In this document: positions 15,129 through 47,999 of the stretch, in pieces | How positions within the stretch are numbered: position 1 is the stretch's first letter | Layout: each line of letters opens with the position of its first letter | DNA from: Bacteroidota bacterium | GTDB taxonomy: Bacteria > Bacteroidota > Bacteroidia > Palsa-948 | Direction: 5' to 3' | DNA: 47,999 nucleotides | Assembly: GCA_023251625.1 (NCBI GenBank) | Contig: JAHEYK010000002.1 | Span: 8,636 to 56,634, forward strand | The notes under the pieces: generated by a model | The model's database searches: none | What the model saw: only the letters and a program-made list of their open reading frames with translations | What the model was told of the DNA's origin: nothing | Position numbers and translations under genes: made by a program

Positions 15129-18100
15129 TTATTTCTGTGCCCTGCTTCCGTATAGCTGATCGAGTGCCTCTACTTTTGTGTTGAGTTTAGAGAATTGTTC
15201 TTTCAACTCCGAAAGCTGCACCTTGAGATCTGAATTTTCTGTTTCTAATTTAGTATTGAGCTCTTGGACCGCTTTTACCAGCGGAACAGTGAATAATTCA
15301 TAAGCAACACTGTAATTATCATTTTCATTAGCAGGTTTATGCACTCCGTTAAAATTATATCCTGATTCTTTGGCAGCCTGTTCCACTTCCTGCGCAATAA
15401 AACCGGTTTGGCGAATTGCTGTTGATTCCCTGTAATCTTTTCCGCTCATGATAACCTCCCTTAAACTATCAGTCGCATTTTTCAACAAAAAGGCATCAAA
15501 TTTACGGGTGTCAAAGTTGTAAACTATCGGACGAAGTTTTGTGATGAAATCCAGGCCCTTTACTTCTTCGGTCACATTGTTTTTAAATCTTCCATCCGAG
15601 GGGAATGTATAAGCCACCTGCCCTTCAATGACTGTTACGGTTGCATCTCCGAGTCGGATCTTATTACTTGCGGTCATAACCGAATTAGCACCTAACGCTG
15701 TGGTATTCGAATACGTAGTTGCCATCAGACTTGCATAATATCCCACCGCTGTATTATAATTTTCGTTGGTAATGGAGCCCAATGCTTGTCGTCCAACAGC
15801 GGTATTGCGCATGCCTGTGTTTACAAACGACATAACAGAATATCCAAGGCCTGTATTGTCAACCCCTGAAGTATTTGCCTGCATGGTATTGCTGCCGAGT
15901 GCGGTATTAAAATTTCCGCCCAGGTTCGCAAAAAGTGTCCTCCAGCCTACTGCGGTATTTTCAGCACCCGAAGTATTTGAATACATGGACATGTAACCGT
16001 TAGCGGTGTTTTGTGTACCGTCAGCATTTGTATACAAGGCCTGAAATCCTGCAGCCGTATTAAATCCTCCTGTAGTAAGTCCTCTTAATGTTTGGTAACC
16101 AAGAGCTGTATTCCAGTTGCCCGTATTGGCTGCAGCTGTAGTAGATCCGCGCATCGCTTCATAGCCGAGTGCAACATTATAATTCGTAAACGCACCTACA
16201 GCATTGTTAGCATAGTACATCGCATTATAACCGACCGCGGTGGCATTACTGCCCGCCACATTATAATAAAGCGACTGATCTCCAACCGCCGTGTTATAAT
16301 TTCCTATCGAATTGGAAAAAAGGGCCCAGGTTCCGGTTCCGGTATTGTAGCCACCCGAAGTGTTATTCCTAAGAGTTCCTAATCCGAAAGCTGCATTCTC
16401 ATTTCCGGTGCTCAGATAAAGTGAGCGGTATCCCATAGCCGTATTATCAATTCCGGTTGCATTGGTATACAACGCCTGCATGCCAACAGCAGTATTTTCG
16501 TTTCCGCTTGAATTTGAATAAAGCGCCTGGTACCCGACTGCTGTTCCATGATATGCATTTGTGTTTGAATAGAGCGCCTGGCTTCCAAGGGCTGTATTTT
16601 CATATCCGTCAGCATTCGTGGTCGGCTGATTGGTATAAAGTGCTTTGAATCCTACAGCTGTATTGTCGGTAGACCACGCTGTGGTTGTATTTGTAAAAGC
16701 ATTGTTTCCCTGAAAATACAGAGCATCAAAACCAAGAGCAGTATTTTGCGATGCGTATGTATTTTGCTGCATGGCGTTATTGCCCATGGCAGTGTTGTTG
16801 GATCCGGCAATATTCGCCCAGATACATTGCTCGCCAACAGCTGTATTAGCGGCTCCGATGGTGTTCTGCCTCAAGGCAGCTCTTCCTATAGCCGTATTTT
16901 TATCAGCCGTGGTATTTGCTGCCAGCGCATGAATTCCTACAGCTGTATTGTAAATTCCAGTAGAGTTATTGGTCAACGCATTGAATCCGATGCCTGTATT
17001 TCCTTCGCCCGTAGAATTCAGATACAATGATCCGGATCCGACAGCGGTGTTCTGATACCCATTGGCTCCAGTTGTAGAGTTGGTGGTATAAAGCGAATGA
17101 AATCCAACTGCGGTATTGTTACTGAGCCATGCAGTACCTCCATTATTGTATGATTGCGTATATAAAGCCTGGTTTCCAATGGCCACATTTTGGCTGGCAG
17201 TGGTATTGTTATACAGAGTGCTATCTCCAAAAGCTGAATTATCATTTGCAATTGTATTATTTCGAAGTGAATGATACCCTGCTCCCGTATTCCAGTTACC
17301 TGAAGTATTTGCGTATAAAACATTGGTGCCTGTGGCCGTGTTCTGATTTCCGGTTGCGTTATCATGCAGCGTGTTAACTCCTGTAGCCGTATTTTGCGTG
17401 CCGGTAGTGTTTGAAATTAATGACTGCCATCCGACAGCCGTGTTAAAATTCCCGGAGCTATTTGCAAAAAGAGCATCGCGGCCCATGGCAGTATTTGCTA
17501 ATCCGGTATTCGATGCTGCGGTAACAGAACCCCGAAGAGAATTAACTCCCACAGCAGTATTCGTATTATCATACGGCACAGCTGTACTGTTTGCATAATA
17601 TTGTGAGTTACGCCCCACCGCTACTCCCAGATCTCCTGTTACATTCGAATAAAGTGCAGAATTTCCTATGGCAACATTATTATCTCCGGAGGTGTTCGAA
17701 AAATTTGCCAGATACCCGATAGCGGTATTGCCCACTCCTTGCCCGGTTGTATTTGTGTTCCCTGCCTGATATCCGAAAAAGGTATTACCCTGCGTTCCGT
17801 CTATCCTTCCAGCCTTGTTATTGTTCATCCGGATGTTGAAAGGGATATTATCCGTGGTGCCGATAAAATTTGTCCCGTCAACAGTGCCTGTATTTCCAAG
17901 AATCGCCCAGTCTAATCCACCGTTCCCACCGCTCCAGCGCACCCACTTGGTACCATCCCAGTAATAATATCCCGGGGTGACATTATTCGGAGAGACTCCT
18001 GCTGTAGCTGTGTTATAAACGATCAATCCTTCTTCGCTCGCAGCAGGTGCCGGCGTAATAGGCGATGTATTATTCGTGGCTGACAGGGCAACCCTGGGCG

Positions 18101-18269
18101 TAAATATTCCCTTGGTCGTGCTCACCACATCCAGCATGGAAGAACTGTTTGGCAAAGCTCCCGTACTATTGATAGAAACGTTTTGGGCATGCAACCCGGC
18201 ATCCTTCCAAAGAAATGGAATGAGAACTAGTAATGAAGCTGCGAAGCTTACGTTGATGGCTTTTTTCAT
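15129..18269 (-). CDS. Giant beta-solenoid surface protein with S74 self-cleaving chaperone domain
   Basis: This 1,046-residue protein has a signal peptide, an N-terminal module (about 27-115; SSSMLDVVSTTKGIF, GYYYWDGTKWVRW), then about 39 repeats of roughly 18-24 residues with the core NTAVGxxAL. These resemble the YadA-type trimeric adhesin head (left-handed beta-roll). Near the C-terminus lies an S74 intramolecular chaperone (PF13884 type, as in phage endosialidase tails): FPSDGRFKNN carries the Ser-Asp-x-Arg signature with the expected cleavage Ser. A heptad-rich coiled coil (VQELNTKLETENSDLKVQL) ends the protein. It is probably trimeric and autoprocessed. It has no T9SS signal, so how it reaches the surface is unclear. 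Confidence 0.82.
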   Translation of the reverse strand: MKKAINVSFAASLLVLIPFLWKDAGLHAQNVSINSTGALPNSSSMLDVVSTTKGIFTPRVALSATNNTSPITPAPAASEEGLIVYNTATAGVSPNNVTPGYYYWDGTKWVRWSGGNGGLDWAILGNTGTVDGTNFIGTTDNIPFNIRMNNNKAGRIDGTQGNTFFGYQAGNTNTTGQGVGNTAIGYLANFSNTSGDNNVAIGNSALYSNVTGDLGVAVGRNSQYYANSTAVPYDNTNTAVGVNSLRGSVTAASNTGLANTAMGRDALFANSSGNFNTAVGWQSLISNTTGTQNTATGVNTLHDNATGNQNTATGTNVLYANTSGNWNTGAGYHSLRNNTIANDNSAFGDSTLYNNTTASQNVAIGNQALYTQSYNNGGTAWLSNNTAVGFHSLYTTNSTTGANGYQNTAVGSGSLYLNSTGEGNTGIGFNALTNNSTGIYNTAVGIHALAANTTADKNTAIGRAALRQNTIGAANTAVGEQCIWANIAGSNNTAMGNNAMQQNTYASQNTALGFDALYFQGNNAFTNTTTAWSTDNTAVGFKALYTNQPTTNADGYENTALGSQALYSNTNAYHGTAVGYQALYSNSSGNENTAVGMQALYTNATGIDNTAMGYRSLYLSTGNENAAFGLGTLRNNTSGGYNTGTGTWALFSNSIGNYNTAVGDQSLYYNVAGSNATAVGYNAMYYANNAVGAFTNYNVALGYEAMRGSTTAAANTGNWNTALGYQTLRGLTTGGFNTAAGFQALYTNADGTQNTANGYMSMYSNTSGAENTAVGWRTLFANLGGNFNTALGSNTMQANTSGVDNTGLGYSVMSFVNTGMRNTAVGRQALGSITNENYNTAVGYYASLMATTYSNTTALGANSVMTASNKIRLGDATVTVIEGQVAYTFPSDGRFKNNVTEEVKGLDFITKLRPIVYNFDTRKFDAFLLKNATDSLREVIMSGKDYRESTAIRQTGFIAQEVEQAAKESGYNFNGVHKPANENDNYSVAYELFTVPLVKAVQELNTKLETENSDLKVQLSELKEQFSKLNTKVEALDQLYGSRAQK

Positions 18270-18310
18270 AGTAATAAAATTTATGTTTTGAGAACGGGTA
18301 TACCCTGCCA

Positions 18311-18318
18311 CAAAGATA
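18311..18318 (-). promoter_or_regulatory. -7 element for the S74 solenoid gene
   Basis: The minus strand reads TATCTTTG, an exact TAnnTTTG match, about 42 bases before the ATG. A good -33 TTG at the right spacing is not apparent. Confidence 0.45.
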
Positions 18319-34371: not shown

Positions 34372-37300
34372 CTATCGGATCAATGAAATATTTCCTTTTC
34401 TTAGAATTTCTTTGTCGTTCAGTAAGGTGACCCTCAAATAATATGCAAATACAGCTGTGTTCATCATTTTCCCTTTATAGTTTCCATCCCAGGTGGAAAC
34501 CAGGTTGCTTGCTTCAAACACCTTTTCTCCCCACCGGTCATAAATGACAAACTCCAGATCTTTGATACAGCTGATATCCGGATAGTAAAGTTCAAGTACA
34601 TCATTCTTTGTATCGTTGTTGGGCGAAAATGCATCCGGAACAAAAAACTGATCATCGGCATAATTGCAGTTATCGGTTTGCTGAATATACACGATCACAC
34701 AGGCGCTGTCAATACATCCTCCGCTAGTTGATGAAACGCAGTACGTGGTGGTAACAACCGGAGAAACAGAAATTACCGCTGTGGTCTCTCCTGTACTCCA
34801 GGTATAATTATTTCCTCCGCTTGCAGAAAGTGTTGTACTGCTTCCTGCCGTAATGGTTGTATTGCTGAAGGCAGAAACGGACGGCCCCGGATTTACCACC
34901 ACGGTTGCAAATGCTGTATCGGAACAGCTGCCTGCTGAAACTATAACCGAATAGGTTGTGATCACAAAGGGGGAAACCTGAATAGTAGATGCCGTTGCCC
35001 CGTTGCTCCAGGAATAATTGGTGCCACCATAGGCATTCAGCACAGCTGTTTGCCCTATACAGATGGTATCGTTTGAAGCAGTAGCTGTTAAACTGCCCGT
35101 TGCTGCAACAGTTACTGCTGCAGAGGATGTGCATCCGTTAGCATCTGCTATCATTACCGAATAATTTCCTGAAGAAAGGTTAGATGCTGACTGGGTGGTT
35201 TGTCCGGAAGGGTTCCAGGCATAGGTATACAACATAGTTCCACCGGATGCAGAAACTGAAGCACTGCCGTTGTTCCCTCCGCAAGCTGCAGGTGTTGAAC
35301 TCACGCTGGCGCTGAGCGCTGCGGGTTCTGTAATACTTATTGTTTGAGTACCGCTGCATCCGCTCGCATCCGTCACCGTCACAGAATAAATTCCGGCACT
35401 GAGCCCGCTCGCAGCGCTGGTTGTTTGCGCCGTAGGATTCCAGATGTATGTGTAAGGAGAAGTACCGCCCGAAGCGGAAATATTTGCCGAACCATTATTT
35501 CCACCTTTACAAGAAACATTTACATAAGGTGGAACGGTAACAACTAACAGCCCGGCAGGAATGGTTGCCACCGCAGTATCTTTTTCATTGCAGGCGCCTG
35601 CTCCTGTAACGATGACTGTGTAATTTCCTCCGGCAAGTCCGGTTGCGGTTTGCGTGGTTTGCGGAGGAATGGTATTCCATACATACGTGTAAGGCCCGGA
35701 ACAAAATAATGCTGTAGCGGTGGCGGTGCCGATGTTGGATGATCCACATGAATTTGGAGTGGTGGTAATATTTATTGCGTTACAAATGCTTGACATATTG
35801 AACTGCGCAACAAATCCGGAATTGGTACTCGCAGTTGCTGTTCCTCCAACGGCATAAAATATACCTCCGGCACCCATGCAGATATCGAGCACAGGAAAAG
35901 GTGTTGCAAAAGAAGTAAGAAGAGTTAAGGAAGGATCGAATACATAAACTCCGGTAGAGGAACCCACATAAATATTCCCACATTTATCCACCGCTAAACC
36001 CGAATTAGAATGCTGCACTCCATTCGGGACAGCAACGCTTCCGATGAGAGCTCCGGTGACCAGGTTTCTTTTTTCCAATGTCGCGCCCAAACACAAATAC
36101 AAATAACTGCATCCTGCCGCTAAACCATTGATGCCATACGTGCCGTAACTTGTATTGAAGCCATCTTTAAAAGCTGCGCTCACCGGATAATTATTACTGA
36201 ACACAACCGAAAAACCTGTTGCGGGATTCAGGCAGCTGAGATGAGAATTTGAAACAGGGCTCGTATCCATCACTGAAAGAATATACAAGTATCCGTTCTT
36301 TCCGTAAGATGCTGAAACAATATCGCCTGTAGCGGGAGGAGAAAATTTTATTGTCTCCGCACCGGTACCTGTATTGATAATATCCCCCTGCCCTACGTTG
36401 CAGCAACCGGGACCGCAGCCTAACTGGATCAACTGCGTGAAATCACAATTAAAAGCGTTGCGCCAGTTTTCGTATAACTGCGGGCTCTGGGTATTCCACA
36501 TCAGGGTTCCGGCTGTATTTAATTTCGACTGCATGCAATCGAAGAAAAAATATCCGATGAAATAAAACCCACAGGTCACATACGAATTACCAGCAGGGTC
36601 AACAGAAATATCTCCGGTATTTTGAATGTAATTCATCGCCTGAGTAAAACTGAAGGTCCATTGGAGCACCCCGGCTGAATTATATTTCTGAACATAATGT
36701 CCAACGGGATTTGTGGCGTTCATCAACCCGTCAAATCCGTATATGTAAACATTATTGGCCGCATCTGAAGAAACTTCTACTACCGTATTGGAAGGCGTCA
36801 GTCCGCTTTTTATCCATGGATCAACAACAACTGTTTGAGAATGATCGTAAGAACCCAGCTCAAATGTGACCACATTATTCATTAAATTAAAATGAGAAGA
36901 AATTAATCCATCTCCTGACGCGTAAAAAGTTTCCGGAGCCTGATCCGATATATTCCCTGCAACATTCGAAAATAAAATATCACCACCGTTGTTCTTAACT
37001 ACTTTTTCAGCACCTGTATACTTCATTTTAACCTTTGAAATATCCGCTCCCGGGTGCAGGATCAATTTATATTTCAGTCCTTCGGTGGAATGAAAAATAT
37101 ATTCAACATCAATGTTCGGATAAAGGTCCTTATAAATTATTTTTTTGTATCCACTAACACGATCAATACTCTTGTGAATGTTCTTCGGATCAAGGTAGTT
37201 CCAATATTCCGAAACTTTATTTTCGGACACGATGCGGGCATTGGGGTTTACTCCCTCCCACTCCATCTCTATATAATACGTGCGCAAGATAGTTTGCTCC

Positions 37301-37620
37301 TTTTCTCCTTCCTCCGCTTCTTTATGTCCGTCTCTTTGATGCTCCAAATATTTCTCTTTCTCTTCTTCGCTCATCCTGTCTTCCTTTTGCATTCCATAAA
37401 TAAGCCCGGTGGTGGTAAAATAAACCTGCGGACCGAACTCTGCTCCGAACAATATCTTTCTTGCTGAATAATTTTCAGGAAGTACAAACTGTCCTTTGTT
37501 CTCGATGAATATTTTGGGAGATGATTGCTCAGCAGTCCAATTTCTTCCGGATGCATGCACTGCGGTGATGCCAAAAAAATGAAGTGCGGCCGCAAATAAA
37601 AACAGCAGAGTTATTCTCAT
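34372..37620 (-). CDS. SprB-repeat surface protein with DUF7948 domain and type B (CHU_C) T9SS signal, copy 3
   Basis: This 1,082-residue protein is the last gene of a five-gene operon. It has a signal peptide (about 1-24), a DUF7948-type N-terminal domain (about 30-270; FIENKGQF, DVEYIFHSTEGLKYKLILHPGAD), a propeller-like region (about 275-610), three SprB-type repeats (about 610-850; SPYTYIWNPTAQTTS, GIYSVTVTDASGC), two PKD-like repeats, and a CHU_C/gliding-motility-associated C-terminal domain (last 100 residues; FVPDAFSPNNDTKND, YDRWGEKVFEAS). A highly charged Glu/Lys insert sits at about residues 77-108. Type B proteins are exported by the T9SS and usually need a SprF-like partner, which is encoded directly upstream, nine bases away. 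Confidence 0.87.
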   Translation of the reverse strand: MRITLLFLFAAALHFFGITAVHASGRNWTAEQSSPKIFIENKGQFVLPENYSARKILFGAEFGPQVYFTTTGLIYGMQKEDRMSEEEKEKYLEHQRDGHKEAEEGEKEQTILRTYYIEMEWEGVNPNARIVSENKVSEYWNYLDPKNIHKSIDRVSGYKKIIYKDLYPNIDVEYIFHSTEGLKYKLILHPGADISKVKMKYTGAEKVVKNNGGDILFSNVAGNISDQAPETFYASGDGLISSHFNLMNNVVTFELGSYDHSQTVVVDPWIKSGLTPSNTVVEVSSDAANNVYIYGFDGLMNATNPVGHYVQKYNSAGVLQWTFSFTQAMNYIQNTGDISVDPAGNSYVTCGFYFIGYFFFDCMQSKLNTAGTLMWNTQSPQLYENWRNAFNCDFTQLIQLGCGPGCCNVGQGDIINTGTGAETIKFSPPATGDIVSASYGKNGYLYILSVMDTSPVSNSHLSCLNPATGFSVVFSNNYPVSAAFKDGFNTSYGTYGINGLAAGCSYLYLCLGATLEKRNLVTGALIGSVAVPNGVQHSNSGLAVDKCGNIYVGSSTGVYVFDPSLTLLTSFATPFPVLDICMGAGGIFYAVGGTATASTNSGFVAQFNMSSICNAINITTTPNSCGSSNIGTATATALFCSGPYTYVWNTIPPQTTQTATGLAGGNYTVIVTGAGACNEKDTAVATIPAGLLVVTVPPYVNVSCKGGNNGSANISASGGTSPYTYIWNPTAQTTSAASGLSAGIYSVTVTDASGCSGTQTISITEPAALSASVSSTPAACGGNNGSASVSASGGTMLYTYAWNPSGQTTQSASNLSSGNYSVMIADANGCTSSAAVTVAATGSLTATASNDTICIGQTAVLNAYGGTNYSWSNGATASTIQVSPFVITTYSVIVSAGSCSDTAFATVVVNPGPSVSAFSNTTITAGSSTTLSASGGNNYTWSTGETTAVISVSPVVTTTYCVSSTSGGCIDSACVIVYIQQTDNCNYADDQFFVPDAFSPNNDTKNDVLELYYPDISCIKDLEFVIYDRWGEKVFEASNLVSTWDGNYKGKMMNTAVFAYYLRVTLLNDKEILRKGNISLIR

Positions 37621-37629
37621 ACAGCCGCT

Positions 37630-38730
37630 TTACTTATTGAAGCTTGCATTCGAATAAAGGAACGGACTTGGGTTCAGAAGGCGAAGTGTGATCTCAAATC
37701 CTCCCCTGCCGTATGTCACTGCCTTTAAGCCCGAAACATTGATGTCGTAGCTAATACCCAGCGAGTAGCTCGCCATTTCTATGTTTGCGGCTACGATCAC
37801 TGCATCCTGGTAACGGTAATATCCGCCCAATGATACCGCGGCTCCTTTTACATAACCCGTATAGTGAGAATCTTCTTTTAACATGTAACGCACCAATGTT
37901 CCGAACAATATCTCACGTGCTGTGCCTTGCTGCGCATACAGGAACGTAGGGGTGAACGAATAATTTGTGTTGTCCACTCCCAGCAAACTATGTCCATGAA
38001 TAATGTATTTGCGATACAATGTCTCCGTGGTGCCGAAAAAAGAATAGGAGGGTTGTGCAAAATGGGAAATCGATGCGCCCAAATAAACATCCCGCTGGTC
38101 ATTGCCTCTCATGTAACGTTCGTTCTTCTTATAGGTCCATAACAGGCCTGCACCAAAATCAGGATAGATGACCGATGTCTTTGAAAAATCTTCCTGGGCG
38201 GGGAGATTGGGGTCATAATTACTTCCGTCATATTGGCTACCCCATTTAAGATCATTATAATTAATGCTGCGTTGGGCAAGGCCGCCTTGTAACCCCAAAG
38301 AAAGCATTTGGTTCTGCCCAATCTTCGCCTGATAGGCGAGCGATAAGTTTGCGTTGGTAGTTCCCATCTGCGAAGTTCCGGCCTGGTCTTTCAACACCAA
38401 AATACCCCAACCCAAACCAGTCTCCGATACTTTCTGAAAAAAAAGTGTCTTCCGCTGACTAAACACGGTCTCTATCTGACGAGCCCATCTCTTTCTGAAC
38501 TTCTGGTCAAAAGAGAATCCGAATGTACGGTACGGAATAGTGACACTCCCCCACTGTTCGCGATACGACATCTGCGCCCGTATCCAAACTGTGGTGCCGG
38601 CTTGCGCCGGATTAGTTGCCAGCGGCATTTGCGTGTATTGCGCAAAGTGGATGTCTTGCGAGAAACAATAGTCAGCAGACAGTAGATAGCAGGCAAAAAA
38701 GAGCCCAAGAAAATGTAATTTAGATCTCAT
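37630..38730 (-). CDS. PorP/SprF-family type IX secretion outer-membrane protein
   Basis: This 366-residue protein has a signal peptide (about 1-24) and the family N-terminus DIHFAQYTQMPLATNPAQAG, followed by a long series of beta strands typical of the PorP/SprF barrel family (TIGR03519). In Flavobacterium johnsoniae, SprF is needed to secrete the type B substrate SprB. Here the gene sits between two CHU_C substrate genes, with gaps of 11 and 9 bases, so it is probably the dedicated exporter or anchor for the operon's large proteins. The C-terminus (FEITLRLLNPSPFLYSNASFNK) is family-like. No core T9SS genes (gldKLMN, sprA) are in the window. Confidence 0.9.
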   Translation of the reverse strand: MRSKLHFLGLFFACYLLSADYCFSQDIHFAQYTQMPLATNPAQAGTTVWIRAQMSYREQWGSVTIPYRTFGFSFDQKFRKRWARQIETVFSQRKTLFFQKVSETGLGWGILVLKDQAGTSQMGTTNANLSLAYQAKIGQNQMLSLGLQGGLAQRSINYNDLKWGSQYDGSNYDPNLPAQEDFSKTSVIYPDFGAGLLWTYKKNERYMRGNDQRDVYLGASISHFAQPSYSFFGTTETLYRKYIIHGHSLLGVDNTNYSFTPTFLYAQQGTAREILFGTLVRYMLKEDSHYTGYVKGAAVSLGGYYRYQDAVIVAANIEMASYSLGISYDINVSGLKAVTYGRGGFEITLRLLNPSPFLYSNASFNK

Positions 38731-38741
38731 GTTTTATTTTA

Positions 38742-41700
38742 TTAACGTATTAGACTAATATTTCCTTTTTTGATCGTTTCCTTTCCATTATTAAAAGTTA
38801 CTTTCATATAATAAACAAAGACAGCCGTGTTCATCATCTTTCCTTTGTATGTACCATCCCAGGTAGATACAATACTGGACGCTTCAAATACTTTTTCTCC
38901 CCATCGGTCATAAATGACAAACTCCGTCTCTCTGATACAGCTGATATCGGGAAAATATATTCCCAGAATATCATTTTTTGTATCTGCATTCGGAGAGAAT
39001 GCATCAGGAACAAAAAGTTGATCCTCGGCATAATTACAATTATCCGTTTGCTGAACGTATACGATCACACAAGCACTGTCAGTGCAGCCACTGTTGCTCG
39101 AAGTAACGCAATATGTGGTAGTAACCAAAGGCGAAACTGTGATATCTGACGTGGTCTCTCCTGTGCTCCAGGAATAATTGGTTCCTCCGGTCGCAGAAAG
39201 CGTAGTGCTGCTTCCTGCCGTGATGGTTGTGTTGCTCCAGGCAGAAACATTGGGGGCTGTATTAACGGTCACCGTGGAGAAAGCAGTATCTGTACAAGTG
39301 CCTGATGAAACAATAACAGAATAATTTGTTGTGACAACAGGATTTACACTCACACCGGCTGTGGTTGCGCCTGTGCTCCAGGAATAATTGGTTCCTCCGG
39401 TAGCTGCAAGAGTAGCATTTTGCCCGGCACAGATCGTATCATTTGTTGCCGATGCTGAAATACTTCCGGTTGCAGCAACTGTAATTGTTTGCGTGGATGA
39501 ACACCCGCCGGCATCGGTGATCGTCACCGAATAATTTCCGGATGCAAGATTACTCGATGTTTGAGAAGTTTGTCCATTGCTCCAGTTATACGTATAAGGC
39601 GGGGTTCCGCTAGAAGAAGATGCCGTTGCGGTGCCACTGTTGCCTCCGCAGCTCGCTGCTGTGGATGTAACGGAGGCAGAAAGTCCGGCTGTCAGGCTGA
39701 CGCTTACCGTTGATATTTTACTGCAGCCATTTGCATCGGTGACTGTTACAGAATAATTTCCGGATGCCAAACCTGTTGCATTTGCTGTGGAAGATCCGGA
39801 TGGATTCCAGGAATAAGTATACGCCCCTGTTCCTCCGGAAGCCGATACGGATGCACTTCCGTTATTTCCTGAACAACTCGCAGGATTGGAAGAAACCGTT
39901 GTTGAAAGCGCAGCGGGTTGTGTAACATTTATAGTTTGTGTGCTCGTACATCCTGTGCCATCCGTTATAGTGACTGAATATATTCCGGAGGATAATCCCG
40001 TGGCCGCTGATGTGCTTTGCCCCGAAGGATTCCAGCTATACGTATAGGGAGTACTTCCTCCGTTCACAGTAACACTTGCAGAGCCACTTGTTCCACCAAA
40101 ACATAAATTGGGAGTGAAGGCAGGGGTCACAGAAAAACTTGCACCGGATGGCAATGTAATTACAACTACGGTTGTCTCTGCGGGGCATGAAGAATCTATG
40201 ATGGTGCATGTATAAGTTCCGGATGCCAGGTTACTGATAGCGCTCGTAGTTGCTCCATTGCTCCACGAATAATGGTACGGCCCGATTCCATTGATGATCG
40301 TATCTATCCAGGCAGTTCCATTCGTATTGCCGCAACCTGTAGGCGGAGTTGAATCAGCAGTTGCAGTCATGGGTAAATTCGGTTGAGGATTGCAGGTGAT
40401 GGGTGCTCCTCCCTGAACAATCCCTCCGTATACTCCTACAAATCCAATTCCACAGGCGGCAATTGTATTACCCGGAGCAAAGGCCATGTCGTAAACAGGT
40501 TTGGAAGTTGGAACAGAAGTAATGAGGGTCATTGCCGGAGTGTAAGCGGAAATTCCGTTTTGCGTTCCCACATAAAAATTATTAGCAAGGTCGGCCAGTA
40601 TTCCGGAATTCATCAGCAATGTTCCTCCTGCAATATTTGTACTTCCTAAAAGTGAGGGAGAATAGATATCAAATTTCTGCACCTGGCTTCCGGTGTAAAT
40701 ATAGATGTAGCAGTTGCTTGCTGCAATTCCATTTCCCATATAATAACATCCAACGTAATAGGTAGGGCTCGAAGGTTGAAAAGGAATAGTCCAGTAAGGG
40801 GAAGGCGGAACATTGCAGGAGCGGTAGATACCCACAAAGTTGGGATCAAAGCCGGTGATGGTAGAAACATTATTCGAAGATGACCCGTCTCCCACTGCAG
40901 TATATCCATAAAAATTTCCGTTAGGGGCACGTGTTATGTGGCGGAACTCTCCATTTGCATTCGGGCATGCAGCAGGACAAGGACCCGAAATAATATTACA
41001 GGCATTCCATCCTTTCGGGAGCCACTCAGGGCTTCCGGTAGCCGGATCATACCACGTTGCTTTGGTTTGTCCGTTCGAGCCTGCTCCATACAACCTGTTA
41101 TTCACAGGGTCAAAGACCATTCTCCATCCTGTTTCGCAGCAGGCAATATTGGTGATATCACGAGTAGGCGCATAGAGCCAGGTGCTGGTTCCGGCTGCAG
41201 ATAATTTTCGCACACATTCCGATCCGCTGCAGTAACTATTGCCGGCAGGATCAACAGCCAGGTCTCCTCCTATCAAAGTAGGGTTGTATAAATAACCGGG
41301 GCCGGACGTGAATGTCCATTGAGGAACTCCGGCATTGTTGTATTTTTTTACTTCCGAGTTGTAATCACCATACACCAAAACATTCCCTGCAGGATCCACC
41401 GCAATTTCGTATGCGGTGTCTAATTGCGGCCCTGTTACACTCACCCATGGATCGATGATGATGGTAGATGAATGATTAACAGAAGCAGGGGCCAGTTTGA
41501 AGGAAACTGTGTTTCCATTCAATTCAAATGAAGATGAAACAGGCTCTCCGTTTTGATAAAAACTTATCGGAGCATGATCGATAATATCCCCCAGCAGGGT
41601 CTTGATGACAATGTTATTCTTTTGATCCAATGAAATTTTTTGCGCTCCTGAGTATTTCAATTTCACCTTGCTTATATCTGCTCCTGGGTGAATGATCATA

Positions 41701-42266
41701 TTGTATTTGATACCGGATATTTCATGGAACACATATTCCACATCAATCCCTTCATACAAATTTTTATAAAGCAGCTTTTTATACCCCTTTACAAAATTGA
41801 TATCGTGCCTGATGTCTTTATCCATTCCATAATTAAAATATTCATTAGCCACGTGTGAGGCTTCCACTTCACAATTGGGGTTTGCTCCGGCCCATTCCGC
41901 ATAGATCACAGTTGTTTTTGCCTTGAATATTTTACTTTTCAATTCCTGTTCTTCCTCTAGTTCGTGCTGACTTTCCGGACCGCCTTTCCCTTCTTCTTTC
42001 TGAAACTTCCTGAACGCTTCTTCGTCCCTCACACAGGTGTGAAGCGTATATGCTACCTTGTTTTTTGAGAAGAAGATTTTAGTGCGAGGGTGATTCATCG
42101 CAAATAATACCTCGGGAAAATCTCTTAAATAAGGCGCTCCGTTAAACTGCCCTTTATTCTCAATAAATAATTTAGGAGAGAACAACGTGCTGTCCACCCA
42201 GCCGGAAGCCGATGCAGGACCCAAGGCCACCACAAGGAATGCTATAAGAAATAATATTTTTTTCAT
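38742..42266 (-). CDS. SprB-repeat surface protein with DUF7948 domain and type B (CHU_C) T9SS signal, copy 2
   Basis: At 1,174 residues this is the longest of the three paralogs. It has a signal peptide, a DUF7948 domain (FIENKGQF, DVEYVFHEISGIKYNMIIHPGAD), a propeller-like middle (YDMAFAPGNTIAACG at its end), about five SprB-type repeats (TPYTYSWNPSGQSTS, GIYSVTITDGTGC), two PKD-like repeats and the CHU_C domain (FVPDAFSPNADTKND, YDRWGEKVFEAS). Its C-terminal 100 residues are nearly identical to copy 3, which points to a recent duplication or gene conversion. An acidic insert lies at about residues 85-115. The 32-bp exact DNA repeat inside it lies in the PKD-like units. It follows copy 1 by three bases. 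Confidence 0.87.
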   Translation of the reverse strand: MKKILFLIAFLVVALGPASASGWVDSTLFSPKLFIENKGQFNGAPYLRDFPEVLFAMNHPRTKIFFSKNKVAYTLHTCVRDEEAFRKFQKEEGKGGPESQHELEEEQELKSKIFKAKTTVIYAEWAGANPNCEVEASHVANEYFNYGMDKDIRHDINFVKGYKKLLYKNLYEGIDVEYVFHEISGIKYNMIIHPGADISKVKLKYSGAQKISLDQKNNIVIKTLLGDIIDHAPISFYQNGEPVSSSFELNGNTVSFKLAPASVNHSSTIIIDPWVSVTGPQLDTAYEIAVDPAGNVLVYGDYNSEVKKYNNAGVPQWTFTSGPGYLYNPTLIGGDLAVDPAGNSYCSGSECVRKLSAAGTSTWLYAPTRDITNIACCETGWRMVFDPVNNRLYGAGSNGQTKATWYDPATGSPEWLPKGWNACNIISGPCPAACPNANGEFRHITRAPNGNFYGYTAVGDGSSSNNVSTITGFDPNFVGIYRSCNVPPSPYWTIPFQPSSPTYYVGCYYMGNGIAASNCYIYIYTGSQVQKFDIYSPSLLGSTNIAGGTLLMNSGILADLANNFYVGTQNGISAYTPAMTLITSVPTSKPVYDMAFAPGNTIAACGIGFVGVYGGIVQGGAPITCNPQPNLPMTATADSTPPTGCGNTNGTAWIDTIINGIGPYHYSWSNGATTSAISNLASGTYTCTIIDSSCPAETTVVVITLPSGASFSVTPAFTPNLCFGGTSGSASVTVNGGSTPYTYSWNPSGQSTSAATGLSSGIYSVTITDGTGCTSTQTINVTQPAALSTTVSSNPASCSGNNGSASVSASGGTGAYTYSWNPSGSSTANATGLASGNYSVTVTDANGCSKISTVSVSLTAGLSASVTSTAASCGGNSGTATASSSSGTPPYTYNWSNGQTSQTSSNLASGNYSVTITDAGGCSSTQTITVAATGSISASATNDTICAGQNATLAATGGTNYSWSTGATTAGVSVNPVVTTNYSVIVSSGTCTDTAFSTVTVNTAPNVSAWSNTTITAGSSTTLSATGGTNYSWSTGETTSDITVSPLVTTTYCVTSSNSGCTDSACVIVYVQQTDNCNYAEDQLFVPDAFSPNADTKNDILGIYFPDISCIRETEFVIYDRWGEKVFEASSIVSTWDGTYKGKMMNTAVFVYYMKVTFNNGKETIKKGNISLIR
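39160..39401. repeat. Exact 32-bp direct repeat inside the copy 2 surface-protein gene
   Basis: The same 32 bases occur at 39160-39191 and 39370-39401, in frame and 210 bases (70 codons) apart, at matching positions of the two PKD-like repeats. Exact identity over this length exceeds what the protein similarity requires and offers a site for repeat gain or loss. Confidence 0.8.
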
Positions 42267-42269
42267 TCT

Positions 42270-45200
42270 CTATCTGATCAAACTCACATTTCCTTTTCTG
42301 ATGGTTTCTTTTTCTGTAATAAATTTCACCCTCATATAGTACACAAATACGGCTGTGTTCATCATCTTTCCTGCATACGTTCCATCCCAGGTAGAAGCGA
42401 TGCTAGTCGATTCAAATACTCTTTCTCCCCAACGGTCGTACACAATAAAGAAGAATTCTTTTATACAATTAACATTTGGATAGTAAACTCCCAATACATC
42501 ATTTTTAGTATCGTTATTAGGCGAGAACGCATCGGGCACAAAAAGCTGTTCATCTGAAAAACCGCAATCCATGGGCTCTACATACACCGTTACACAGGCC
42601 GTATCTGTACAACTGTTGGCAGTAACCGAGACACAGTAAATAGTATTTATCAGAGGAGCAACAAAAATAACCGAATCGACCTGGCCGGTGTTCCACGCGT
42701 AAGTGCCTCCGCCTGTTGCAGTAAGTGTTGCTGAATTTCCATACGAGATCGTCACATCAATGCCTGCATTGGCAACCGGCCCGCCACCCGATGTAACCAC
42801 GCTCACGGTAGTTGTGTTAGTGCATCCGCCTGCATCGGTAATAATAGCAGTATACGTTCCGGCACTCAGCCCGGTGGCGGTTGAACCTGTTTGGCTTCCT
42901 GGAGACCAACTGTATGTATAGGGCAACGCACCTCCGCTGCCCGCTGCTGTTGCAGTTCCGTTACTTACTCCGCAGGGTGTAGGTGTTGCACTGGCAGTCA
43001 CAGCAACGGTTGAAGGTTGATTGACAGTAACTGTTTGCGTTTGTGTGCAACCATTTGCATCGGTAATGGTAGCGGTATATGTTCCAAACCCCAGTCCGGT
43101 AGCAGTAGCTCCCACTTGCCCGCCAGAAGACCAACTGTAAGTAAATGCTCCTGTTCCGCCTGATGCATTTACTGTTGCGGTACCCGTATTTCCTGCACAC
43201 GAAGTTTGTGTAGATGTTGCCGTCGCTGTGATCGCAGTCGGTTGAGTGATAGTAATTATTTGCGGGTTAGTACATCCGCTGGCATCCGTTACGATTGCAG
43301 TATACGTACCGGCACTAAGCCCTGAAACGGCTGTTGTTGTTCCTCCGGATGGAAGCCAATTATAGGTATAGGGAGATACACCTCCGGTAGCAGATACAGT
43401 GCCGCTTCCATCGCTTCCAACGTTACAAGTGACATTGACCTGAGTACTTGTAACAGAAAAATTTCCAACGGATACAACAGTTACCGTGGCTGTTGATGTG
43501 CTTCCGCCCGGGCTGCAAGGAGAAGAAGCATCTGACACCGTAACAGTATATGTACCTGAAGACAAACCAGTAGCCGTTGAGGTAGTTTGCCCGCTTGGAT
43601 TCCAAAGATACGTGTAAGGAGGTGTTCCACCGGATGCAACCACGGTTGCAGACCCTGTTGAACCTCCGCAAGATGAGTTGGTAGCAGAAATAGTAAGATT
43701 GATCTGGTTACAATTCACAGAGGATAATAAAAGTTCAGAAACAAATCCGGCACCACACACATACAGCTTATTGAAAGGGCCCAAACAAACATCATATACT
43801 TCACCTGTAATAGTGGTGGTAATCGGTGTGCCCGCTGTAAATGTTGTTCCGTTAAAATTATATACGTGCACTTTATTGGGTCCTCCCACATATACATTGT
43901 TGCACGGATCCACGTCAATGCCTTCATGCGTTCTGTTTTGGCCGCCGGTATAGCCTGCATTGACAATTACAGAACCCAGGTTAGCACCGGTTGTTTTATT
44001 CCATGCGATGAGTGTTTTTCCATCGTATGTAAATGCATATTGAGCATTTAATGTAACCGCATTTGCCCGCACAGTTATCTGACCGGCAAAACCCGGAATT
44101 CCGTTATTGGTGATCTCCTGAAAATCATAAGCGGTGGCAACGTTGAAAGCACAAGGTGGATTGTATGTAGTCGAATTCAGGCTTTTCATGAACTTATTAT
44201 TCACCACTAAAAGTCCGGAAGAAGAAGATGTGATCGCATAAAAATCTCCGTTGTTATCCATATCTACCGAGGTAATATCATTACAACAGGCTCCGGGTGC
44301 TCCAAAGCCGTTGAAATTTTTGGGGACACTGCTTGTTAAATTGGTATCAGCGATCAATTGAAGATTGTTTGTGTTACTGGTACCGCCTCCGAAAGCAATA
44401 AGTTTTCCGGTACAGAAATTATAAAACATTTTCCATATCTCATTGGTGCCTGCCAAAGGAGCTGAAGTAGTTTGCAGTACTCCATTTGATTTAACTTTCA
44501 TGACACGAGGGGTGGCACCTGAATTAAATCCTTCGCCAATGAACATGGTACCGCTTTGGCGCAGCAGGCAAAAACGGGAATAGGTATTTGCCCAGCCGGG
44601 CGGAAAAGTAAAGGTCCATAAAAAAGTTCCGGCACTTGAATATTTTGACACCTTATACGGAAAAGATCCGCCTGATACATACACATTTCCATTATTATCA
44701 TAATCAACATCAAACGCGGCGTTATTGGTGCTCAATCCGGTTGGTGTAGCTGTCCAGGGATCGAGAATAATTGTTTGGCCAAAATTATTTTTATGCTCCA
44801 GATAAAACGAAACCAGGTTTCCCTTTAATTCAAATGCTGATTTTATTTTTTCAGATGTATGTTTATAAAAACTTTGCGGCGCATGATCTATTATTTCACC
44901 GGCAGGTGTTTTGACCAGAATATTTCCGTCAGAAGAAAGGCTGATCTTGTCAACATCACCGGAATAGTTCATCTTCACCTTGCTGATGTCAGCTCCGGGG
45001 TGAATGATGAGGGAATATTTAATTCCTCCTTGGGCAGGAACGATGTATTCAGCATCTATGCCGGGATAAAGCTCTTTATAAACTAACTTTCTATACCCTT
45101 TTGCTTTAATATTCTCAAAACCTTTTTCTCCGAACGTATAATACCCTTCCAACGCTTCACTCACTTCCATGGCCGGATTTTCATTACATCCCTCCCATTT

Positions 45201-45536
45201 CATATGCACATAATAGACTTGGGTAGGTTCTGACTCTCCTCTTCTTTCCATCTCCTCCTGTTTTTCTGCACTCAAGCCATTTTCCTTTTTTTCCAGTTTA
45301 ATGGTAAGCCCCTGCTGCGTGAAAAAGATCTTGTCATTACAATTCAGAGCGTATTTAATGGAAGCTTCCGTCTTTGCCCAGCCGTCAAACTGTCCCAGAT
45401 TTTCTACAAAGACATTTGTCTGGAAAGGGCTTGAAGCATTAAAAATAGTTTCGGCTTTTTCTGCAGCAAAAGAAAGATCACAAATAAAACTTGAGAGGAC
45501 ACTTGAAAAAAGAAAATAAAGAGTTATCCGTTTCAT
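42270..45536 (-). CDS. SprB-repeat surface protein with DUF7948 domain and type B (CHU_C) T9SS signal, copy 1
   Basis: This 1,088-residue protein has a signal peptide (about 1-24), a DUF7948-type domain (FVENLGQF, DAEYIVPAQGGIKYSLIIHPGAD), a propeller-like middle ending GFVSELLLSS, four SprB-type repeats (PPYTYLWNPSGQTTS, GTYTVTVSDASSPC), one PKD-like repeat (VANAGIDVTISYGNS) and the CHU_C domain (FVPDAFSPNNDTKND, YDRWGERVFEST). It differs more from copies 2 and 3 than they do from each other, especially near the C-terminus (PMDCGFSDEQ instead of QTDNCNYA). It starts 19 bases after the S74 protein upstream and is followed by copy 2 after three bases. Confidence 0.87.
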   Translation of the reverse strand: MKRITLYFLFSSVLSSFICDLSFAAEKAETIFNASSPFQTNVFVENLGQFDGWAKTEASIKYALNCNDKIFFTQQGLTIKLEKKENGLSAEKQEEMERRGESEPTQVYYVHMKWEGCNENPAMEVSEALEGYYTFGEKGFENIKAKGYRKLVYKELYPGIDAEYIVPAQGGIKYSLIIHPGADISKVKMNYSGDVDKISLSSDGNILVKTPAGEIIDHAPQSFYKHTSEKIKSAFELKGNLVSFYLEHKNNFGQTIILDPWTATPTGLSTNNAAFDVDYDNNGNVYVSGGSFPYKVSKYSSAGTFLWTFTFPPGWANTYSRFCLLRQSGTMFIGEGFNSGATPRVMKVKSNGVLQTTSAPLAGTNEIWKMFYNFCTGKLIAFGGGTSNTNNLQLIADTNLTSSVPKNFNGFGAPGACCNDITSVDMDNNGDFYAITSSSSGLLVVNNKFMKSLNSTTYNPPCAFNVATAYDFQEITNNGIPGFAGQITVRANAVTLNAQYAFTYDGKTLIAWNKTTGANLGSVIVNAGYTGGQNRTHEGIDVDPCNNVYVGGPNKVHVYNFNGTTFTAGTPITTTITGEVYDVCLGPFNKLYVCGAGFVSELLLSSVNCNQINLTISATNSSCGGSTGSATVVASGGTPPYTYLWNPSGQTTSTATGLSSGTYTVTVSDASSPCSPGGSTSTATVTVVSVGNFSVTSTQVNVTCNVGSDGSGTVSATGGVSPYTYNWLPSGGTTTAVSGLSAGTYTAIVTDASGCTNPQIITITQPTAITATATSTQTSCAGNTGTATVNASGGTGAFTYSWSSGGQVGATATGLGFGTYTATITDANGCTQTQTVTVNQPSTVAVTASATPTPCGVSNGTATAAGSGGALPYTYSWSPGSQTGSTATGLSAGTYTAIITDAGGCTNTTTVSVVTSGGGPVANAGIDVTISYGNSATLTATGGGTYAWNTGQVDSVIFVAPLINTIYCVSVTANSCTDTACVTVYVEPMDCGFSDEQLFVPDAFSPNNDTKNDVLGVYYPNVNCIKEFFFIVYDRWGERVFESTSIASTWDGTYAGKMMNTAVFVYYMRVKFITEKETIRKGNVSLIR

Positions 45537-45555
45537 TTCAAAAATTACTATTTGC

Positions 45556-47999
45556 CTACTTCTGTGCTTCTTCCTTTCCTGCCTGGAGCAGCTGCTGCAT
45601 TTCAGCCTCTAATTTAGACATTCTTTTTTCATACTCTGATCTCAGCGAACGGCTATCTGATCTCAGCTTATCGATCGTTTTTTGCTGTTCTTTAATGGAT
45701 TCTACAAGGATGGGGGTGAGTCGGGAATAATCGAGATACTTATACCCCTCTTTGTCAGTAAAGATCAGTTCAGGAAAAAGCTTTTCAACATCCTGTGCTT
45801 TCATACCCAGTTGGCGCTCATCTGCAAATTTCTTGTCCGGAAATTCCTTTGTATTGAAATAATAGTAGTAACCGGATAATTGCAATATTTTATCAAGTGA
45901 GTTTTCCAGTTTCACAAAATCTTTTTTCCAGCGCACATCGCTGCAGGCCGCCTGTGCACCCAACACACTTCCGGTGGCGTAAATATTTCCGGTTACATAC
46001 AGGGCTTGAGTAGGTGCAGTACAACGGATGCCTATATTACCTGTTGCAGCATCAACCCGCATATACTCAGTAGGTGTGCCTGTCCCATTTGTCACAAAAC
46101 GAATAGATCCTGCAGCATCGTCTGAACGGAGGGTCATTCCTTGTGTGGAATTGGTCCATATATAGGCCGACTGAAAATCAGATGTATTAGCTCCGGTATT
46201 GTATGCATTGTTTCCAAGGCCAAACGTTGCAAGTTTTCCATCGCTTCTTGTTATCATGCATTCAGCTGTGGCAGATGTATTGTTCGTCATGTTCTTGAGA
46301 GATATTCTGGTCTTTCCATTCTGATCACGCTGCACATGCAAAACTTCAGCAGGTGCGTTGGTTCCAATGCCTACATTGGTATTGGACAACGCAGGCGATC
46401 CCGTCCAGAAAGTATTGGCAGCTGTAGCAATGCTTCCCAAAACTAACGAGTTATCCGCCTGACAATATGCATATGCTCCAATCGCGGTACGGTTGGTTGA
46501 CGCTCCTGCATCACAATCAGCACCAATGCCAAGAAAAGTATTATTGGTTCCCGTTGTAACCGTTTTTCCAACACCGGAATAAACATCCATTGGAAATCCC
46601 AAGCAAGTTGGATTTTGGTAGAGAGGGGGGCCAATAGCTGTATTGCCGCTTCCTGTTGTCAATCCGCCGTTACCCGGCCCATTGCATGATTGAGTAAATT
46701 TTGCAAAGGCGTAATCACCAATGCCAACGTTGTAACTGCCATTTCCGACTGCTGTAGAAGATGTAAAAGCAAGCGCATCGTAACCTACCGCAACGTTATC
46801 ATTGCCGGGTGGATTAGCCTGAGAGCCGCTAAGAGCATATGCTCCGACGGCAGTATTTTGCTTTCCGGATGTTTGATTGTCGAGCGAAAATGCTCCGATG
46901 GCAGTGTTATTACTTCCGGTAGAAGTATTAGTGCCATTCTGATCGCCGAGCGCCTGGCCACCAACAGCTGTATTGTTCGCTCCTCCGTTTGTATGCCTGA
47001 GCGCATCTTTACCAACAGCTGTATTCCAACTACCTAAGGTTCCATTATTATCCCACAAGGCATACGCACCAACTCCAGTATTATTCATTCCCTGATTGTT
47101 GTACAGCGACTGATAACCAAAAGCCGTATTATCCGCAAAGGTGTTATTCCAAAGAGCTTTATATCCCATGGCGGTAAGATGGCTGCCTCCATTCCAGTAT
47201 CCCGCGTAATATCCTACAGCAGTAGAACTAACACCTGCATTGGTCCATAAAGCAGAATCCCCTATAGCGGTACAATAATTTTTTGTGTTATTATAACCGG
47301 CATAATATCCTAAAAAAGTTTCTCCACCGTTGTTGGCTGCTTGTGTTGCAACAGATGCGCGTGTAAGTATTCCGGCGGTTGCATTATTAATTCTAAAGTT
47401 TAAAGGCACATCATCCGTAGTGCCAAGGAAATTAGTCCCACTCACGGTTCCCGCATTTCCGAGAAGCGACCAATACATTCCGTTGTTGGCAGCATGTATG
47501 TTCATTACGATCCATTTTTGTATCCCCGCTGTATTATTGTACTGCAGCATCACGCTGCACGGTCCTGGGCAAACAACATTAGCTCCCGTCAGCGTTGTGA
47601 TCTGGTTGGCAGCGGCCGAAGTAGAATTGTTAGCGAGGGTCATTACCTGTGCAGTGGTATTATAAAGATTTACAATACGACCGTCATATCCTCCTGTCAA
47701 TCCTGAAAGTGTGAACACTGCTGTTGGTCCGGTGATCCGGAAAAAACTATTATTCCCAAGTGCAACATTATTATTAGCTCCGTTAACAAGAGCGAGGGCG
47801 GTTCCCTCTCGAAAAGCAAAACTGCCATTTATATCAACGGTTGTGTTGGGTGCTGTGGTTCCGATACCCACATTGCCGCCGTTAGGTTGCAACACCAGAT
47901 ACCTGTATGCACGTGTACCCGCTCCGGTGGAATCCACCGCTTCGATACCTCCATACATGGAAGTGGCCGTTGCATTTGTTCCCAAGATCATTCTCAGCT
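45556..47999 (-). CDS. S74-domain solenoid surface protein, N-terminus beyond the window
   Basis: This is the 3' part of the first visible gene of the operon; the frame is still open at the window edge. The visible 811 or more residues show a repeat region with about 14 NTAVGxxAL-type units (for example NTAVGKDALRHTNG, NTAIGAFSLDNQT), short GIGTxAPxxxLHV modules common in tail-fibre-like proteins, and a C-terminal S74 chaperone domain with ACSDVRWKKDF as the Ser-Asp-x-Arg site, then LGMKAQDVEKLFPELI. A coiled coil (IKEQQKTIDKLRSDSRSLRSEYEKRMSKLEAEM) ends it. It is probably trimeric and self-cleaving. It has no T9SS signal although it is co-directional with type B substrates 19 bases away. Confidence 0.82.
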   Translation of the reverse strand, partial: LRMILGTNATATSMYGGIEAVDSTGAGTRAYRYLVLQPNGGNVGIGTTAPNTTVDINGSFAFREGTALALVNGANNNVALGNNSFFRITGPTAVFTLSGLTGGYDGRIVNLYNTTAQVMTLANNSTSAAANQITTLTGANVVCPGPCSVMLQYNNTAGIQKWIVMNIHAANNGMYWSLLGNAGTVSGTNFLGTTDDVPLNFRINNATAGILTRASVATQAANNGGETFLGYYAGYNNTKNYCTAIGDSALWTNAGVSSTAVGYYAGYWNGGSHLTAMGYKALWNNTFADNTAFGYQSLYNNQGMNNTGVGAYALWDNNGTLGSWNTAVGKDALRHTNGGANNTAVGGQALGDQNGTNTSTGSNNTAIGAFSLDNQTSGKQNTAVGAYALSGSQANPPGNDNVAVGYDALAFTSSTAVGNGSYNVGIGDYAFAKFTQSCNGPGNGGLTTGSGNTAIGPPLYQNPTCLGFPMDVYSGVGKTVTTGTNNTFLGIGADCDAGASTNRTAIGAYAYCQADNSLVLGSIATAANTFWTGSPALSNTNVGIGTNAPAEVLHVQRDQNGKTRISLKNMTNNTSATAECMITRSDGKLATFGLGNNAYNTGANTSDFQSAYIWTNSTQGMTLRSDDAAGSIRFVTNGTGTPTEYMRVDAATGNIGIRCTAPTQALYVTGNIYATGSVLGAQAACSDVRWKKDFVKLENSLDKILQLSGYYYYFNTKEFPDKKFADERQLGMKAQDVEKLFPELIFTDKEGYKYLDYSRLTPILVESIKEQQKTIDKLRSDSRSLRSEYEKRMSKLEAEMQQLLQAGKEEAQK

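Follow-up and report, generated by a model that had tools for sequence, protein, structure and literature searches.

A putative T9SS type B adhesin-display operon with three diverged heads, one PorP/SprF-family carrier and a co-encoded S74 fibre gene in a Bacteroidota genome

The minus strand of the DNA analyzed here (the window, 47,999 nucleotides, i.e., G000:C146:8636-56634) carries a gene cluster that, in our judgement, fairly probably represents a T9SS type B adhesin-display operon which co-encodes a self-maturing trimeric S74 fibre and assigns three heads to one carrier. Type B/PorP modules as such are known, and carriage and anchoring by them have been established experimentally (PMC9143113; PMC12618676); the genes described here would extend this kind of module to three heads on a single carrier and to a co-encoded S74 fibre. 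In the proposed mechanism, three DUF7948/SprB/CHU_C proteins would pass through Sec and exit via the T9SS translocon, and a single PorP/SprF carrier, whose gene lies between those of copies B and C, would collect them and hold them at the surface, such that a common, operon-specific sorting domain combined with diverged DUF7948-propeller heads would let one carrier display three alternative heads. The S74 protein would be a secreted, trimeric, phage-tail-fibre-like adhesin whose chaperone may be cut off by the protein itself once it has trimerised; with the genes presumably co-transcribed, fibre and CHU_C adhesins would be produced together, both in time and in location.

Gene content, sorting domains and carrier

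Five reading frames on the minus strand, separated by gaps of 19, 3, 11 and 9 bases exactly as given in the first-pass annotation, encode the S74 fibre protein (45556..47997), adhesin copies A (42270..45536, 1088 aa) and B (38742..42266, 1174 aa), a PorP/SprF-family outer-membrane carrier (37630..38730, 366 aa; PF11751/TIGR03519) and adhesin copy C (34372..37620, 1082 aa); the placement of the carrier gene between copies B and C also agrees with that annotation. Window position 47999 corresponds to contig position 56634, which is the contig end, and the S74 gene (at least 813 codons) is cut there at its 5' end. As the window stops at the contig end, the S74 reading frame lacks its start, a truncation that went unmentioned in the first-pass annotation, and the operon may continue upstream; the designation "five-gene operon" is thus accurate in that five genes are present, but five is a minimum. 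No PorE-like (TPR/PD40/OmpA) gene was found in the operon (34372-47999) among the reading frames or by domain search, and promoter and terminator scans, which gave counts close to those expected by chance or lower (33 vs. 28; 10 vs. 14), were given no weight. The genome (2.73 Mb in 178 contigs, 79% complete) has, by genome search, 11 S74, 10 PorP, 14 DUF7948 and 69 CHU_C matches.

All three adhesins show the order DUF7948, propeller-like region, SprB repeats and CHU_C. Their initial identification as three paralogs with DUF7948, SprB repeats and CHU_C was confirmed, as these domains all scored over curated cut-offs in the domain search, with 145-167 bits for DUF7948, 55-77 bits for SprB repeats (PF13573) and, at the extreme C-terminus, 47-56 bits for CHU_C (PF13585; cut-off 27) and 43-49 bits for TIGR04131 (cut-off 35). 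The TIGR04131 type B sorting domains of copies A, B and C are located, on the minus strand, at 42273..42539, 38745..39011 and 34375..34644, respectively; by sorting domain, the three proteins are T9SS type B substrates, with a dependence of secretion on the T9SS and a cognate PorP/SprF protein predicted. Hydrophobic basic N-termini, candidate Sec signal peptides, were visible by eye in the translations. The term "propeller-like" takes its backing from one moderate-confidence structural model, i.e., that of the copy B region between DUF7948 and the SprB repeats (pLDDT 64, pTM 0.51), whose PDB matches were nearly all beta-propellers.

The last 95 residues of copies A, B and C, which represent the sorting domains, are 67-77% identical to one another and share 25-51% identity with their counterparts in other DUF7948 proteins of this genome. 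For the N-terminal regions, on the other hand, identity amounts to 39-44% between copies, as against 61-68% with the respective orthologs in a related genome (G004; see below). Since the sorting domains are common within the operon while the DUF7948-propeller heads have diverged, these data suggest an arrangement of one carrier and three heads, and they fit the earlier suggestion of alternative filaments. Three diverged heads, one type of sorting domain and one carrier would also make this operon a natural test of carrier specificity. Gene conversion among the sorting domains of the window was not clear, with 4-fold sites 33-40% identical between copies.

The carrier scored 149 bits for the PorP_SprF domain and 181 bits, over the full length and over the cut-off, for TIGR03519. 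PorP/SprF carriers recognise cognate type B sorting domains, with one carrier shown to serve three cargos (PMC12618676), and retention of type B proteins on the cell surface is a function of PorP-like proteins (PMC9143113); the single carrier of this operon probably exports all three adhesins. SprF requires a C-tail Cys-X-Cys, which bonds GldK through a disulfide, for gliding (PMC12635249). Inspection of the mature chain of the window carrier revealed no cysteine outside the first 22 residues and no C-tail Cys-X-Cys, and two orthologs of this protein likewise have no cysteine in the mature chain. As the carrier lacks the SprF C-tail Cys-X-Cys, we do not call copies A to C gliding adhesins, despite the presence of GldJ in the genus. 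The expectation that the CHU_C set would have a SprF-type partner is supported in that the operon encodes its own PorP/SprF carrier, but not in that this carrier would be a SprF in the gliding sense. A PDB match of the carrier to 8i7r (E 0.03) was dismissed as chance. Elsewhere in the same genome, on contig C95 (L023:7921-8904), a PorP-family gene adjoins GldJ, and its product has C-tail cysteines at positions 312 and 324, which do not form a Cys-X-Cys; this protein is a better candidate for a gliding carrier than the operon PorP.

The same locus in sister species

The PorP genes closest to that of the window were found in genomes G002 (73% identity) and G004 (70% identity). Neither a CHU_C nor an S74 gene adjoins the PorP gene of G002. 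In G004, the gene order is an S74 stub, a type A cargo gene, three DUF7948/CHU_C genes and PorP; the stub, with 108 codons, matches the last 98 residues of the window S74 protein (43% identity, E = 1 × 10-16). This C-terminal stub, with the type A cargo gene behind it, has no catalytic motif, and the middle adhesin gene of G004, copy b, is either broken in frame or mis-assembled (L063:995-9597 for this stretch).

In a phylogenetic tree, each adhesin of the window groups with a different one of G004 (A with a, B with b and C with c) at support values of at least 100/99, and the pairs thus represent 1:1 orthologs. This pairing indicates that the three-adhesin array predates the split of the two species, that PorP has moved and that decay of the S74 gene took place in one of the lines. 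As G004 keeps three CHU_C genes and PorP after decay of its S74 gene, S74 is not obligatory for the type B/PorP module. The sorting domains of G004 are 81-93% identical among themselves as compared to 66-76% identical to those of the window. In copies b and c (L063:7441-13295) these domains are 93% identical and their 4-fold sites 81% identical, far above the values for orthologs, which points to a recent event at the 3' ends, either gene conversion or duplication, with a signal clearer than that among the window copies.

The S74 protein and its gene neighbours

The S74 protein consists of beta-helix motifs of the type VGIGTxxP, an NTAxG-type solenoid (approx. aa 226-520), the S74 chaperone/protease domain and a C-terminal coiled coil. 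Its Peptidase_S74 domain (PF13884; 45766..45942 on the minus strand, aa 686-744 of the open frame) scored 46 bits, over the curated cut-off. The motif SDVRWK, with the codons of the catalytic Ser at 45940-45942 and of the catalytic Lys at 45925-45927, is an intact SDxxxK, a motif that is invariant in close relatives, occurs in 230 of the 232 Bacteroidota S74 domains sampled and has been shown to self-cleave in Bd3182 (PMC10769870). The description of the protein as self-cleaving thus applies at the level of the motif, and cleavage itself we infer. A profile built from the alignment of the S74 C-terminus identified the long tail fibre of a phage, MAT fibres of Bdellovibrio and MyRF as relatives in the PDB, while a single-chain AlphaFold model of this C-terminus was poor (pLDDT 53) and was given no weight. 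A signal-peptide-like start was seen in 171 of 201 Bacteroidota S74 proteins as compared to 432 of 997 other reading frames under the same crude rule.

In agreement with the first-pass annotation, no T9SS C-terminal domain was found in the window S74 protein; its proposal that this protein serves as tip or scaffold of CHU_C filaments, however, found nothing in its favour. Among the S74 proteins encoded in loci of the genus, 18 of 51 end in a type A sorting domain of their own behind the S74 domain, which links this protein class directly to the T9SS even though the window protein lacks such a domain. Where an early type A profile matched S74 protein parts, inspection revealed genuine sorting domains at the C-terminus of a subset of these proteins. 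Several of the proteins with a type A sorting domain behind S74 (found in L088, L089, L113, L111, L112 and others) have two S74 domains; should S74 cleave at its N-terminus, the type A sorting domain would depart with the chaperone. The window contains a second S74 gene (15129-18311, minus strand, 1060 aa), which is solitary between opposed genes with no CHU_C or PorP gene nearby.

The pairing of S74 with T9SS genes had been described as steady; this does not hold, as one locus cannot show steadiness and our surveys show the pairing to be uncommon. Only 2 of the 11 S74 matches in G000 adjoin DUF7948 genes, i.e., the window locus and one on contig C87 with the order type A cargo, S74, DUF7948; the others are tandem (C72, C107) or single. 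In 20 independently chosen PorP loci, PorP was adjoined by CHU_C in 18 and by S74, directly upstream, in 1. We then compared the genes next to S74 with genes at least 4 genes away, in all loci of the genus, in 80 named loci chosen by similarity of the S74 C-terminus and in 80 further loci representing other families within the class, using custom-made profiles for which the split between CHU_C and type A is approximate. T9SS sorting-domain genes were overrepresented among the near neighbours in named Bacteroidota (28/125 near vs. 10/258 far; P = 5 × 10-8), in the genus (31/75 vs. 29/206; P = 2 × 10-6) and, about 2-fold, in the class (27/160 vs. 24/267; P = 0.012), and next to S74 genes outside Bacteroidota there were none (0/26). 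The majority of S74 genes adjoin either type A cargo or no gene of relevance. We rejected the idea that genes for proteins with a T9SS C-terminal domain adjoin S74 more often when the S74 protein lacks a sorting domain than when it has one, as both kinds often have such neighbours.

The combination of S74, CHU_C and PorP genes, whose absence from other genomes the first-pass annotation had named as a refutation of the functional link, does occur there, in the order S74, CHU_C, PorP, in L133, L169, L170, L197, L280 and L292. Among 188 evaluable S74 genes, 6 (the window, L133, L169, L170, L197 and L280) showed this order, as compared to approx. 0.37 expected from an average of 7.3 PorP genes per genome (P = 3 × 10-6); this value weakens to P = 0.001 or P = 0.012 if surface-protein genes cluster three- or fivefold, respectively, and all of these P values are somewhat generous as the window itself is among the six. 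The seventh lineage, L292, was found from the PorP side, and a CHU_C-PorP pair was located downstream of 0 of 143 type A cargo genes. In Roseivirga echinicomitans (L197), the two junctions between the three genes are overlaps of 11 and 4 bp. In three Bacteroidota lineages (L133:5693-17254, L169:7559-14565 and L170:6419-15722), the gene after PorP has the domain set of PorE (TPR/PD40/carboxypeptidase-regulatory/OmpA), giving a cassette of S74, CHU_C, PorP and a PorE-like gene; the CHU_C proteins of L169 and L170 are short (254 and 273 aa, respectively). As the PorPs of these loci do not form one clade in a tree, the arrangement has probably been formed or lost several times. Overall, the S74-CHU_C-PorP pairing is uncommon but recurrent, and the link is real.

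Relation to known systems and alternative readings

The operon resembles Fjoh_3952-3951-3950 of F. johnsoniae and PG1035-PorP-PorE of P. gingivalis, in which a C-terminal CHU_C/TIGR04131 domain and a PorP/SprF carrier are likewise encoded in the same cluster (PMC12618676, PMC9143113), and several cargos per carrier are already known from T9SS type B/PorP-SprF operons (PMC12618676). It differs from these operons by its three cargos with diverged heads and by the S74 gene in front, and from the PorE-PorP-type B static anchor operon by having no PorE-like gene, which L133, L169 and L170 do have. With SprB-SprF of F. johnsoniae it shares SprB repeats, a type B sorting domain and a SprF-family carrier (PMC12635249), but the window adhesins are much shorter and have DUF7948 heads, and the GldK-bonding Cys-X-Cys is missing. 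The S74 protein is similar to the Bdellovibrio MAT fibres, an S74 subgroup, in being a large beta-helical fibre of cellular origin whose C-terminus carries an S74 domain, and in its SDxxxK and VGxxxxP-type motifs (PMC10769870). By contrast, PMC10769870 holds no T9SS link, and in the window the S74 domain is followed by a coiled coil; MAT fibres are defined by a conserved, approx. 130-aa beta-rich domain directly after the signal peptide, and the counterpart region of the window protein lies beyond the contig end. Phage K1F endosialidase, the T5 L-shaped tail fibre and MyRF ICA have the same S74 intramolecular chaperone with Ser-Lys self-cleavage (in the window, the motif only), but the window S74 is cellular and located in an operon with T9SS genes.

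One quite plausible alternative, which in our view nevertheless falls short of being probable, is that this is an ordinary type B cargo/PorP operon and that S74 is a mere neighbour with no functional link, given that in Bacteroidota the genes of surface and secreted proteins form clusters with shared promoters. The prevalence of type A cargo, or of no T9SS gene, next to S74, the only 2-fold enrichment in the class, the survival of the G004 operon beyond S74 decay and the single S74 gene directly upstream in 20 PorP loci are all consistent with it, whereas the recurrence of the S74, CHU_C, PorP order in seven lineages including the window, the absence of the same downstream pair at 143 type A genes and the overlapping Roseivirga genes argue for a link. 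Also counting against the display-operon model itself are the stub-only operon of G004, the G002 PorP with no adjoining CHU_C or S74 gene, the usual neighbours of S74 genes and the P value of 0.012 at fivefold clustering; moreover, the N-terminus of the window S74 protein is beyond the contig end, so that any export signal is out of view.

It appears improbable that the CHU_C proteins serve as gliding adhesins which travel on the gliding track in the manner of SprB with SprF. The SprB repeats, GldJ over the cut-off in 7 of 7 genomes of the genus and the missing PorE-like gene, as with mobile cargos (PMC12618676), would be expected under this explanation, but the window PorP and its two orthologs have no mature-chain cysteine where SprF needs a C-tail Cys-X-Cys (PMC12635249), the adhesins, at approx. 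1100 aa, are far shorter than SprB, and a different PorP, that adjoining GldJ on C95, has C-tail cysteines. Hardly credible, finally, is an S74 gene left over from the tail fibre of a phage or contractile injection system and lying next to an operon with which it has nothing to do: while S74 domains are a typical feature of phage tail fibres (PDB 6f45, 8jov), no phage or injection-system genes adjoin S74 within the visible sequence, which ends upstream at the contig end, signal-peptide-like starts in 171/201 relatives are unlike phage fibres, and 18/51 S74 proteins of the genus loci carry their own T9SS sorting domain.

Beyond the adhesin-display operon as such, we consider it unlikely, if worth testing, that some Bacteroidota use a dedicated type B protein together with PorP (and, in some, a PorE-like peptidoglycan anchor) to export or anchor, in trans, those S74 fibres that have no sorting domain themselves, with S74 self-cleavage as a surface maturation step; if true, phage-type trimeric fibres would have an assembly route linked to the T9SS. 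Our literature search found nothing on the export route of the many Bacteroidota S74 fibre genes, and the recurrence of S74 next to export genes in unrelated relatives points to a little-explored display route for such fibres. The co-location of S74 with T9SS cargo, the S74, CHU_C, PorP (and PorE-like) gene order and the S74 proteins with sorting domains together suggest, as a testable proposal, that the T9SS displays phage-type fibres.

Some further arrangements were observed around S74 genes. A DUF7948 gene lies directly behind the S74 gene, with a gap of 3, in a Flavobacteriales MAG (L144:8853-11411) and, with a 4-base overlap, on contig C87 of G000 (L019:2-382). Two genes upstream of S74 in L160 (6298-7827), a gene adjoining a short CHU_C gene encodes a PorP-like protein of 509 aa with an OmpA-like C-terminus, possibly a PorP-OmpA fusion. 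Short proteins with an N-terminal TVIGSxGG... YTxGE and a T9SS sorting domain of type A or B are encoded next to S74 in L014 (5763-6254), L116 (5947-6450), L156 and L169 (10475-11239), and may be a common partner of S74.
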